Source: Defluviitaleaceae bacterium
GTDB taxonomy: Bacteria > Bacillota > Clostridia > Lachnospirales > WRBF01
Assembly: GCA_009784685.1 (NCBI GenBank)
Contig: WRBF01000011.1
Location: 1-42,764, forward strand
Direction: 5' to 3'
Length of the DNA: 42,764 nt
Below are positions 1-42,764 of this stretch, piece after piece. Position numbers and translations under genes: made by a program. A model generated the notes under the pieces. It saw only the letters and a list, made by a program, of their open reading frames with translations. It ran no database searches and had not been told where the DNA came from. Each line of letters opens with the position of its first letter. Positions within the stretch are counted from its first letter, which is position 1.

Positions 1-89
1 GAATGCACAGATTTTCAGCAGGTTTTGTGTAAATCGAGGCAAAAATTTGCAGAAATACTGAACGTATTTCAAGAATTTTTAATATGCAT

Positions 90-140
90 CGACAAGAAGG
101 TCGGACGCCAAAGGCGGCTTTTGTATAGCAAAAGTGCTGA
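90..140 (-). repeat. Triple-hairpin element, copy E
   Basis: Three adjacent small hairpins in non-coding DNA upstream of aspartase: CGAC/GTCG (90-93/100-103, loop AAGAAG), CGCC/GGCG (106-109/113-116) and CTTTTG/CAAAAG (118-123/129-134), followed by TGCTGAG. Read on the minus strand this has the same order as the four copies at 30.9-32.5 kb: a CTCAGCA flank, an A/T-rich hairpin, a G/C hairpin, then a hairpin with loop CTTCTT. The copy lies within a wider 10-bp inverted repeat (18-27 and 152-161), and a perfect 7-bp hairpin lies just upstream (52-70). No gene is visible in 1-228. Confidence 0.7.
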
Positions 141-228
141 GAAGAGTGGCGCAAAACCTGCAAAAAGATGAGCGTTTCAGATAGTGGGAACACGCCCTAG
201 CTAATAGAAGAAGGAGGACTCTACTCTA

Positions 229-3970: not shown

Positions 3971-4804
3971 GTGATTTCTAAAAAAGACATACACATGTTT
4001 AGGGAAAGTCGCCGCATACTGCTCAAATCAAATGAGTATATATGTTTAAGCCCCCACTCCAATTTAAGAGAATACATTTCAAACTACAACATAACATTTC
4101 CCACGAAAGCTATTATGCCAACCGGATTCACAATTATGCCAAGCGGCTGCGGCTCGCTTACTGTTTCAAGTGATGGCAAAAATTTATTTGTTGATTTGGA
4201 TGGTCCTACTATGAAGCCGTATATTGTTGGCAGTCAGGCTGATCAGCCTGAAATGATAGTAGATATTGAATTTAAACCGGCGGGGCTTTATGCATTGATA
4301 GGTATAAATCAAAGCGAACTGACTGACGAAAAAATTTCTTTTGAAACAGTGAACCCCGTATTAAGCAAATTGATATCCAATGCAGTTGAAAAAGCGGACA
4401 GTGTTCTCGAGCTTGTAACTAGCCTTGATATATTGCTGTTTAAGAGCATGTATACGATTTATCATCCGCAGTTAAAGCTGATATTTCAAAATATTTTTGA
4501 TTGTGCCGGGAACGTTTCAATCAAAAGCCTATCAGAGGAATCACATTACAGTGAACGTCAATTGAATAGGCTCTTCAAGGAGCATGTTGGTGTAAGTGGT
4601 AAGTCGTTTTCAAGGCTGATTAGAATTTATAACACCTTTCGTTTGCTTAAAAAGTCTAAAAATAGTTTAACTTTTATTTCTGATGTAACTGGATATCATG
4701 ATTTGTCGCATTTTATCCGTGATTTTAGATTGGTATGTGGTATAACACCACAAGATTATCGTAATAATATGTCCGATTTTTACATAAATTCTACGAAATT
4801 TTAG
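3971..4804 (+). CDS. AraC-family transcriptional regulator
   Basis: A 277-residue regulator with a GTG start preceded by GAGGGGG. The N-terminal part (about 20-150) resembles the cupin-like DUF6597 sensor domain seen in many AraC proteins (YICLSPHSNLREYISNYNI, followed by TGFTIMPSGCGSLTV). The C-terminal part (about 165-270) is a double helix-turn-helix: SIKSLSEESHYSERQLNRLF and LTFISDVTGYHDLSHFIRDF, then the typical GITPQDYR. The small alpha/beta-barrel gene just upstream could be a partner or a target; the ligand is unknown. Confidence 0.85.
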   Translation: MISKKDIHMFRESRRILLKSNEYICLSPHSNLREYISNYNITFPTKAIMPTGFTIMPSGCGSLTVSSDGKNLFVDLDGPTMKPYIVGSQADQPEMIVDIEFKPAGLYALIGINQSELTDEKISFETVNPVLSKLISNAVEKADSVLELVTSLDILLFKSMYTIYHPQLKLIFQNIFDCAGNVSIKSLSEESHYSERQLNRLFKEHVGVSGKSFSRLIRIYNTFRLLKKSKNSLTFISDVTGYHDLSHFIRDFRLVCGITPQDYRNNMSDFYINSTKF

Positions 4805-5439: not shown

Positions 5440-5603
5440 TATACTCGTATCCCCTCAAAACAGTAACAAAAACTTGTATTTTTTCCGCTATTCGTCGTCA
5501 AAAGAACCTTACCGTACCTTCGGGTACGCTAAGAACCTTTTTCCTAGTCTAGCGAAAAAAATTCTGCGTTTTTCTGCTACTGTTTTGAGAGGATACGAGT
5601 ATA
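5440..5603. repeat. Long-palindrome repeat (MITE-like), copy 1
   Basis: A 164-bp element that is an imperfect palindrome along its whole length. Its ends are TATACTCGTATCC / GGATACGAGTATA, followed inside by CTCAAAACAGTA / TACTGTTTTGAG. The centre is CGTACC-TTCG-GGTACG, a UUCG-type loop. Interior asymmetric motifs are CGTCGTC on the left arm and TTTCCTAG and TTCTGCG on the right. An inverted copy at 42642-42764 differs at one position over the 123 bases visible. No transposase is encoded; reading frames through it are shadows. Confidence 0.88.
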
Positions 5604-30770: not shown

Positions 30771-31088
30771 ATGCAAATCACCGTGAGAAAAGCAACCGAA
30801 TCAGACATCGACAAATTGAGAAATAATCCAACTTGGGGATGCGGTGTGTCCGAATTTGACTGGCATTACGACAGTGAGGAAATTTTCAGTAGTTTTACTT
30901 CGTAAAACCGCGCTTTGCGCGCCCGACTTCTTTCGGGTACACGCTGGCTAACCGAGGGTGAAGTGACCGTAACTTATGATGGCGGCAGTGTATCATTTGG
31001 CGCAGGGGACTATTGCGAATTTCCGCAGGGTTTATCCTGTGTCTGGAAAGTCACCAAGCCTGTAAAAAAACATTACGAATTCAGATAG
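30771..31088 (+). pseudogene. Cupin gene interrupted by a triple-hairpin element
   Basis: The first part (ITVRKATESDIDKL, SEFDWHYDSEE) and the last part (LTEGEVTVTYDGGSVSFGAGDYCEFPQGLSCVWKV) together make an EutQ-like/cupin_3 protein of about 85 residues. They are separated by about 57 bp containing element copy A. Both halves are in the same frame, but the insert brings a TAA at 30903-30905 (codon 45). Removing the insert restores a typical cupin strand (EE-x-x-LTEGE). The gene has a normal ATG and AAGGGATG upstream. Confidence 0.8.
30892..30937 (+). repeat. Triple-hairpin element, copy A
   Basis: Contiguous hairpins: GTTTTAC-TTC-GTAAAAC (30892-30908), CGCGC-TTT-GCGCG (30909-30921), CCCGA-CTTCTT-TCGGG (30922-30937), preceded by TTCAGTA. 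Inserted in frame in the cupin gene. Confidence 0.88.
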
Positions 31089-31098
31089 GAGAAATTGT

Positions 31099-31500
31099 AT
31101 GCTTATTCCAACAATTCATTTTAACGGAAATTGCAACGAGGCAATCGCATTTTACAAAGAGGCATTAGGCGCGGAGGTTAAGGAAATAAACTACGCCAAA
31201 GATGCGCCGCCGAACAGTGGCATGGGCGAATTACCGCCAAATTTTGTGATGCACTCAGAAGTGTTCATTTGTGGTACAAATTTTTCATTGACGGACGGCG
31301 CAGAAACTCCGATACCATTCGGAAATTTCTCGTTCATTATTGTTTATGATACAGCGGAAGAGGTAACAGCGATTTTTGAAAAGCTAGCAGTAAGCGGTGA
31401 AGTGGAAGAACCGTTAGCCACCACGTTTTGGTCACCACTCTACGGCTCTGTCGTTGACCGTTTCGGCGTGAATTGGCAAGTGATGGTGAAACATTCATGA
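31099..31500 (+). CDS. PhnB-like VOC-fold protein
   Basis: A 133-residue PhnB-like VOC protein: IPTIHFNGNCNEAIAFYKEALGAEV at the start, SEVFICGTNFSLTDG in the middle and YGSVVDRFGVNWQVMV at the end. AGGAGA before ATG 31099. It appears intact and overlaps the next gene (ATGA). It is similar in layout to the VOC gene at 1.7 kb. Confidence 0.85.
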   Translation: MLIPTIHFNGNCNEAIAFYKEALGAEVKEINYAKDAPPNSGMGELPPNFVMHSEVFICGTNFSLTDGAETPIPFGNFSFIIVYDTAEEVTAIFEKLAVSGEVEEPLATTFWSPLYGSVVDRFGVNWQVMVKHS

Positions 31501-32309
31501 ATGAAATAATCCGCAAACGCAAATCCGTGAGAAAATACGACCTCACACCACTGGATGCCACAATCCTTGAGGCTGTTCGCGCAGAAATTAATAATCTGAA
31601 GCCGCTGTACCCAAACATAAAATTTTCTATTGAAATCGTCAGCAAGGCAAAGGGTATGTTCGGTATAAAAGCTCCGCATTATTTAATTTTCACAAGTGAT
31701 GAACAAGACGGATACCTTGAAAACATCGGCTTTGTCGGTCAGCAGTTGGATTTGTATTTCTCTGCCAACGGAATGGGTGCGTGCTGGCTTGGCGCATCGA
31801 AATCAGATGAGAAATTGGAATCTGATTTACCGCATGTTATCGCATTGGCTTTCGGCAAGCCTTCCGAGCCGCTTTATCGTGAAATTTCTGCTTTCAAGCG
31901 CAAGCCCTTGTCAGCAATCAGCGAAGGTAGTGACCCACGTTTGGAAGCGGCACGACTTGCCCCCAGTGCGATGAATATGCAAAACTGGTTTTTTATCGCA
32001 ACCAACGGGAAAATCCATTGCTATTTACGAAAAACTAATCCTCTTCTTGGATTGATATACGGCAAGATGAACCGCATAGATTTGGGCATAGCCGTTTGCC
32101 ATATTGAACAGGGGGCACCCGAAAGAAGTCGGGACGCCGAAGGCGGGTTTTGCGAAGCAAAACTGCTGAAAAGCGAGAATTTTTCTTTTGCCAAAATGGA
32201 CGATGTACCCATACGAAAAGAGCTTATTTATGTAGGGACGGTTGTGTTCAGCAGTTTCGCCTCTGGCGAAACCGACCTTCGGTCGCCCCGCTTCTTCGAG
32301 GTGCATTAA
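31497..32309 (+). CDS. Nitroreductase-family protein with in-frame repeat insertions
   Basis: A 270-residue TM1586-type nitroreductase (two fused half-domains): N-terminal NEIIRKRKSVRKYD, middle GFVGQQLDLYFSANGMGACWLG (FMN-domain landmark) and LAPSAMNMQNWFF. After GIAVCHIEQG the frame passes through element copy B, adding about 18 residues (APERSRDAEGGFCEAKLL) that do not fit the family, then returns to ENFSFAKMDDVP. The last residues (SSFASGETDLRSPRFFEVH) are encoded by copy C. The frame stays open, so a modified protein may be made. Start ATG 31497 overlaps the VOC stop. Confidence 0.72.
   Translation: MNEIIRKRKSVRKYDLTPLDATILEAVRAEINNLKPLYPNIKFSIEIVSKAKGMFGIKAPHYLIFTSDEQDGYLENIGFVGQQLDLYFSANGMGACWLGASKSDEKLESDLPHVIALAFGKPSEPLYREISAFKRKPLSAISEGSDPRLEAARLAPSAMNMQNWFFIATNGKIHCYLRKTNPLLGLIYGKMNRIDLGIAVCHIEQGAPERSRDAEGGFCEAKLLKSENFSFAKMDDVPIRKELIYVGTVVFSSFASGETDLRSPRFFEVH
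32118..32163 (-). repeat. Triple-hairpin element, copy B
   Basis: On the plus strand CCCGA-AAGAAG-TCGGG (32118-32133), CGCC-GAA-GGCG (32135-32145), GTTTTGC-GAA-GCAAAAC (32147-32163), then TGCTGAA. It is the reverse orientation of copies A, C and D. It lies in frame in the nitroreductase gene without a stop codon. Confidence 0.88.
32254..32301 (+). repeat. Triple-hairpin element, copy C
   Basis: GTTTCGCC-TCT-GGCGAAAC (32254-32272), CGACC-TTC-GGTCG (32273-32285), CCCCG-CTTCTT-CGAGG (32286-32301; one mismatch), preceded by TTCAGCA. It forms the 3' end of the nitroreductase gene just before the DUF503 start. Confidence 0.85.
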
Positions 32310-32644
32310 TGTTCGCATTAACGGCAGAATTGGCTTTTTACATTCCGCAATCAACATCGCTAAAAGATAAGCGGCAAATTCGCAGAAGTCTAATCGAAAA
32401 AACGCGCAACAAATTTAATGTATCAATTGCGGAAATTGCCACACAGGATATTTTACAAACGCTGACCATTGGAGTCGCTGTCGTGTCCGGCTCATGATTT
32501 TCGCTTCGCGAAAACGGCACTTTGTGCCGCCGATTTCTTTCGGTCTCTGATGCCGCCCACAGGCGAAATTCCATAGATGAGATTATCCGATTCATGGAAG
32601 AACACGCTGATGCGGAGCTGACATATGTGCAAATAGGAGAGTGA
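32309..32644 (+). pseudogene. DUF503 gene interrupted by a triple-hairpin element
   Basis: The N-terminal part (FALTAELAFYIPQSTSLKDKR, ..NKFNVSIAEI, IGVAVVSG) and the C-terminal part (SDAAHRRNSIDEIIRFMEEH, then ELTYVQIGE) form a typical DUF503 protein of about 93 residues. Between them lies element copy D; the insert gives a TGA at 32495-32497. Taking out exactly 54 bp rejoins GTGTCCGGCTC to TGATGCC in frame. The start ATG overlaps the nitroreductase stop (TAATG). DUF503 proteins are small and conserved in Firmicutes; function not established. Confidence 0.82.
32498..32543 (+). repeat. Triple-hairpin element, copy D
   Basis: TTTTCGC-TTC-GCGAAAA (32498-32514), CGGCAC-TTT-GTGCCG (32515-32529), CCGA-TTTCTT-TCGG (32530-32543). 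The inserted segment is about 32494-32547, with CTC at both junctions as a possible short duplication. Confidence 0.88.
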
Positions 32645-42641: not shown

Positions 42642-42764
42642 TATACTCGTATCCTCTCAAAACAGTAGCAGAAAAACGCAGAATTTTTTTCGCTAGACTA
42701 GGAAAAAGGTTCTTAGCGTACCCGAAGGTACGGTAAGGTTCTTTTGACGACGTATAGCGGAAAA
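42642..42764. repeat. Long-palindrome repeat, copy 2 (cut by window end)
   Basis: The reverse complement of 5481-5603 with one difference in 123 bases (CGACGTATAGC versus CGACGAATAGC). The remaining arm runs out of the window. Near identity over 37 kb points to recent spread or conversion. Confidence 0.9.

Follow-up and report, generated by a model that had tools for sequence, protein, structure and literature searches.

How five copies of a tiny, strongly paired sequence came to lie in one contig of a Defluviitaleaceae bacterium, and what kind of element they represent, are the questions raised by this locus. We analyzed the whole stretch of 42,764 nucleotides, referred to below as the window. 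The first-pass annotation had described the copies as three contiguous hairpins, and all five were recovered (cmsearch E = 1e-17 to 1e-24), with the first stems, the differing second stems, and the YTTCTT third loop as it had given them. R1, a covariance model built from the five window copies, scored them at 62.9–83.6 bits, and the next-best match in the window reached 11.2 bits (cmsearch). The three-hairpin layout alone was set aside as evidence, since a generic scan gave approximately the chance level, with 25 clusters of adjacent triple hairpins scoring at least 16 among those listed in the window, compared with 15–21 in shuffled sequences. The sharing of sequence together with structure is not due to chance.

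Anatomy and covariation of the element

The five copies align from a common TCA to a common TN'C (Table 1). Their annotated loci were accurate, but the true unit, approximately 57 bp from the TCA, is larger than had been noted. The three hairpins were likewise seen correctly, but a fourth, outer stem completes them as a closed four-way junction. The plan of the element is TCA–GNA–hairpin 1–hairpin 2–hairpin 3–TN'C–2 nt. Hairpin 1 has a T-rich stem of approximately 7 bp (TTTTGC...GCAAAA type) and a 3-nt loop; hairpin 2 is free in sequence and sometimes enlarged to more than 40 nt; and hairpin 3 combines a stem of approximately 5 bp with a 6-nt loop, mostly YTTCTT, ending in TCTT. In the outer stem, the 5' GNA pairs with the 3' TN'C (GTA/TAC, GCA/TGC, GAA/TTC), and the full form folds on one strand into a four-way junction with zero unpaired bases at the junction. 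The copies placed at 90–140 and 32118–32163 are on the minus strand. The former is a genuine element, with the correction that it sits within a repeat of approximately 200 bp (window positions ~1–200) that recurs in the genome; its flanks are found again in L005, L023, and L024.

Table 1. Element copies and associated features in the window
Feature	Position	Strand	Remarks
Copy 1	30886..30942	+	57 bp, TCAGTA...TACAC; outer stem GTA/TAC; CM E 1.9e-22; within EutQ-like cupin gene
Copy 2	32113..32169	-	57 bp; outer stem GCA/TGC; CM E 2.7e-24; in frame, stop-free, within TM1586-type nitroreductase gene
Copy 3	32248..32306	+	59 bp; outer stem GCA/TGC; CM E 1.6e-20; 3' end of nitroreductase gene, right before DUF503 start
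Copy 4	32492..32548	+	57 bp; outer stem degenerate; CM E 8.6e-18; breaks DUF503 (YlxP-like) gene, in-frame TGA
Copy 5	84..140	-	57 bp; CM E 6.5e-21; carried within larger repeat
Larger MITE-like repeat with copy 5	1..200	.	truncated by contig start; 94–98% identity to G000:C10, C48, C3 over ~200 bp
MITE-A copy, empty element site (site A)	5440..5603	+	98% identity to reference; site ...CGTCGTCAAAAG... (L193)
Cupin gene, broken by copy 1	30771..31088	+	joined gene matches Cupin_3, 67 bits
Nitroreductase gene	31497..32309	+	copy 2 read through in frame (adds 57 bp), runs into copy 3; Pfam TM1586_NiRdase
DUF503 gene, broken by copy 4	32309..32644	+	joined protein matches DUF503, 93.5 bits

In the five window copies, 93.8% of the cells were paired and 16 were double-change cells, compared with 72% and 4.8 in shuffles, and register-slid controls showed 32–53% paired cells. 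None of the 500 shuffles and none of the slid registers reached the observed pairing or number of double changes. Across 24 diverse copies and 20 pairs, 96.0% of the 480 pair cells were standard, double-change cells numbered 87 (24.1 in shuffles), and the covariation score was 0.51 (0.14 in shuffles), with slid registers 32–54% paired. This alignment was made by sequence only, after four longer-loop copies had been pruned. Most of its rows had been collected with a search pattern in which stem 1 and the TTCTT loop were fixed, so pairing is fairly tested by hairpin 2, by the stem of hairpin 3, and by the outer stem. R1 treats the last of these as unpaired and provided an independent test, in which 51 of 62 distinct R1 matches form the outer stem (GTA/TAC in 18, GAA/TTC in 17, GCA/TGC in 13, GTG/CAC in 3). 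The earlier view that structure is conserved over sequence was borne out in the five and in the 24 copies, the covariation exceeding both shuffles and slid registers. The covariance-model search that the annotation had proposed returned dozens of further copies in the genome and its relatives, and most of the distinct ones pair even at the outer stem.

Variants of approximately 89–94 bp with an extra long stem within hairpin 2 were observed (L053, L061, L067, L074, L056, L063, L040, and L050); the middle arm tolerates cargo. On the minus strand of L153 (~4235–4340), the hairpin 2 loop appears to contain another triple-hairpin sequence (TCAAGTG...CAC), possibly a nested relative. Copies of the Anaerotignum neopropionicum type (L085, L088, L090, L106, and L128) have a 4-bp outer stem, GGAA/TTCC, within a conserved flank, CCTTGGGCGCCGGG, and are probably carried by another repeat.

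Distribution, insertion sites, and mobility

The complete 1.53-Mb metagenome-assembled genome (MAG) contains approximately 58 strong R1 matches. Carriers make up 9 of 39 order-level genomes, the source genome included, and the other 30, with no match at E 0.001, serve as a negative control. Scanning the GTDB representative genomes with a degenerate pattern yielded 81 stretches, all titled Bacillota or Clostridia, at least three of which look like an unrelated repeat. The hosts are Defluviitaleaceae termite MAGs, Anaerotignum, rabbit and goat gut Clostridia, Geosporobacter, and Paenibacillus. We rejected L081, L114, and L156 as family members; they match the pattern, but apparently represent an unrelated repeat, TCAGCAATTTTGCTTCGCAAAACC...GAAAGGAGAA, of a rabbit-gut Ruminiclostridium MAG. 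R1 detected 131 copies in A. neopropionicum DSM 3847, 100 in a Eubacteriaceae MAG, 71 in a Paenibacillus MAG, and 57 in an Anaerotignum MAG. The result of the phylum-wide scan (2 of 399) is not a prevalence, since no more than 14 candidates were scored in each genome, and the scan recovered just 14 copies in the source genome. A 56-bp query had no match in the plasmid and phage collections. Tandem arrays of the element also exist, with spacers of 2–4 bp.

Excising 57 bp of copy 1 gives back the continuous frame ...SEEICWLTEGE..., and the DUF503 frame is restored by excising 54 or 57 bp. In-frame copies were found in other genomes, in hsdR (L122) and in two DNA methylase genes (L080 and L148). 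The latter two are independent in-frame insertions, both in C-5 cytosine DNA methylase genes, and L080 comes from a viral contig. A transposase gene (L089) is frame-shifted by a copy, and excising 59 bp (the element plus 2 nt) restores its frame, in agreement with the ends found at MITE sites. Copies occur on either strand of genes. The annotation had likened the family in habit to the Rickettsia palindromic elements (RPEs) while calling it much smaller, and this description fits: the copies lie within genes, sometimes in frame, and are approximately 57 bp long.

Three sites in two MITE-like repeats of the source genome exist in empty and filled forms, with several copies of each. The empty and filled lengths are 41 and 98 bp at site A, 41–42 and 97–101 bp at site B, and 47 and 105 bp at site C. 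At site A, the empty form ...CGTC/G/TCAAAAG... corresponds to filled CGTC(TCAG...TACAT)ATCAAAAG. The empty form AAATAAA/GAAGAAG of site B is filled with TCAG...TACRT, and GGGCT/M/TTGAC of site C with (R)TCAG...TACRY. The insert is (N)TCAGNA...TN'C plus 2 nt, the gain is 57–58 bp, and the target duplication is 0–1 bp at the three sites, with an uncertainty of approximately 1 bp concerning the base preceding TCA and the final two bases of the element. Since the empty alleles of site B lack TCA, an IS605-like insertion behind a fixed TCA target was rejected. The 34 insertion sites showed a weak target preference after TN'C, for T at +4 (18/34) and G at +6 (19/34). In the relative G017, four sites contain 89-bp versions, the main copies of which are 96–99% identical while their 60-bp flanks are 22–42% identical. 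The many copies, the four covarying stems, the insertions into genes and MITEs with 0–1 bp duplication, and the recent copying to unrelated sites were established by sequence comparisons throughout, several of them from MAGs. That the element is mobile DNA is well supported by these comparisons.

Copies of the 165-bp MITE-A (inverted ends TTATACTCGTATCC...) lie at window positions 5440–5603 and 42642–42764. Many assembly contigs end within MITE-A or MITE-B; the breaks in the assembly were probably caused by these repeats. At L010 (~1300–1465), we observed a second insertion of approximately 160–190 bp within MITE-A, with inverted ends GGGTCTGTCGAC...GTCGACAGACCC, a MITE in a MITE.

Mode of movement and alternative explanations

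We consider it probable that the element is a non-autonomous miniature mobile DNA of approximately 57 bp, one strand of which would fold to a fully paired four-way junction and which would be moved in trans; that the folded single strand is recognized, and that the enzyme acts in trans, are the parts that we infer. Folding may take place during replication, with the lagging strand as one example, and an enzyme supplied in trans would recognize the junction together with the TCA end and the TCTT loop. This enzyme would then excise or copy the recognized strand and insert it with low target selectivity. Copies that have landed in MITEs are carried by them and multiply as passengers. A bolder and rather doubtful proposal is that the family represents a categorically new mode of DNA mobility, widespread among the Bacillota. 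Its main requirement would be that single-stranded DNA fold into a fully paired four-way junction, in effect a miniature Holliday junction, and the processing would fall to an undescribed enzyme or to housekeeping enzymes of junctions or of replication.

The annotation had suggested looking for a REP-type transposase or reverse transcriptase that the copies share, and neither tracks the carriers. Y1_Tnp was detected in 3/9 order-level carriers, compared with 17/30 non-carriers, and in 9/15 other carriers; it is missing from 12 of 24 carriers overall, including those with 71, 39, 38, 29, and 12 copies. The corresponding order-level counts were 5/9 and 17/30 for reverse transcriptase, and 2/9 and 12/30 for IS110. 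Y1/RAYT, reverse transcriptase, and IS110 were rejected as consistent movers, as none fits the carrier distribution, with the proviso that failure to find an enzyme in a MAG of low completeness is weak evidence (the source genome is 77% complete). These counts bear on a REPIN-type origin, in which two REP-like hairpins around a spacer hairpin would be moved by an IS200/IS605-like Y1 transposase (RAYT), perhaps lost from many hosts. A similar clover layout and compensatory stem changes are described for REPINs (PMC3116915), the 5' GNAN includes GTAG and GCAG among its possible forms, which recalls the degenerate GYAG tags of REPs (PMC3733652), and the target duplication is minimal or absent. 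Nevertheless, we regard this origin as unlikely: beyond the distribution of Y1_Tnp, none of 15 examined Y1 loci had a convincing element beside it, and the ends of a REPIN are formed by a single REP in two inverted copies, while hairpins 1 and 3 of the element show no relationship to each other.

Whether the folded form is DNA or RNA bears on two further readings. In the 24 diverse copies, G–T pairs numbered 4 of 461 and A–C oppositions 7 (480 pair cells). RNA helices tolerate G–U, but not A–C, and 13 tRNAs of the same loci, used as a control, contained 5% G–U. Relative to tRNA, the odds ratio for wobble was 0.17 over all pairs (p = 0.0007) and 0.24 over variable pairs only (p = 0.008). With DNA energy parameters, three hairpins formed in all five window copies, while RNA parameters rearranged several. 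Folding as DNA rather than RNA appears favored, as G–T is no commoner than A–C. The annotation had allowed for folded RNA or single-stranded DNA; its DNA part gains from these data, and RNA as the copied form is disfavored by the low G–U tolerance. A reading in which reverse transcription spreads a structured RNA (for instance, a small ribozyme or a regulatory RNA) or its retrocopy would explain the strong covariation, but is very improbable given that G–U is as rare as A–C mismatches, that copies occur on both gene strands, that Rfam gave no match above the gathering score, and that no reverse transcriptase was detected in the carriers G011 (100% complete, 40 copies), G017, and G033. Template-switch correction of palindromes would leave the same signature, so the scarcity of G–T pairs is not proof of selection, and the compensatory changes could derive partly from such correction of imperfect palindromes. 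An enzyme-free spread by replication template switching, with covariation as a mutational by-product (quasi-palindrome correction), would also suit the tandem arrays with their 2–4 bp spacers, the missing target duplication, the very few wobble intermediates, and the lack of an associated enzyme. We judge it improbable, since the 3-bp outer stem, whose halves lie approximately 50 nt apart across three hairpins, covaries at its middle base, which is hard for local correction, and since precise, repeatable ends at unrelated sites and near-identical copies at unlinked sites also speak against it.

Relation to known small repeats

REPINs are nearest in plan, and RPEs nearest in habit. For REPINs, a clover form has been proposed and compensatory stem changes have been reported (PMC3116915); their two ends are identical and inverted, and they have a GTAG tag and accompanying RAYTs (PMC3733652). 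The survey of GTAG/CGTC elements lists other phyla, not Bacillota. The element resembles REPs and REPINs in being tiny, palindromic, present in many copies, possibly clover-like in fold, and sometimes intragenic. It differs in that hairpin 1 (3-nt loop) and hairpin 3 (6-nt YTTCTT) are unrelated in 24 copies, in that GNA accepts any of T, C, or A at its second base, in covariation with the 3' end, instead of forming a conserved GTAG (or CGTC) tag, in that GNA closes a stem, in its few G–T pairs, and in that a RAYT/Y1 gene is often missing from the genome and was flanked by elements at none of the loci examined. RPEs are 105–146 bp long, with a long stem-loop and terminal inverted repeats (PMC2229807). 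The element shares with them a location within genes, a conserved structure, an unknown mover, and in-frame insertion (in the window nitroreductase, hsdR, and the methylase genes), although other insertions break frames; it differs in its 57 bp, four short stems, lack of long terminal repeats, and phylum. Classical bacterial MITEs are also non-autonomous, and the hosts MITE-A and MITE-B belong to this kind, whereas the element has only a 3-bp outer stem and, at three sites, a 0–1 bp duplication, compared with the terminal inverted repeats and duplication of at least 2 bp of MITEs. The small dispersed repeats (SDR) of Nostoc are likewise very small mobile repeats with no known mover, and differ by description in being smaller and cyanobacterial. 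Mitochondrial repetitive or double hairpin elements are short, potentially mobile, and sometimes in genes, with an unknown mover; they comprise one or two hairpins, occur in organelles, and are not known to have a closing stem (PMC2800124). The statement that no described family has this layout agrees with the open literature searched, which contained no such description. By the features tested, we place the element outside the described kinds, as a new family of its own among the miniature palindromic mobile DNAs.

RPEs, SDR, and mitochondrial hairpin elements have long been without a known mover. The sharp ends, the empty and filled alleles, the four covarying stems, and the more than 130 copies in the cultured type strain DSM 3847 make the question of the mover testable. 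Genome annotation of Bacillota needs a new repeat family, and this family shows a route by which short in-frame insertions enter proteins.
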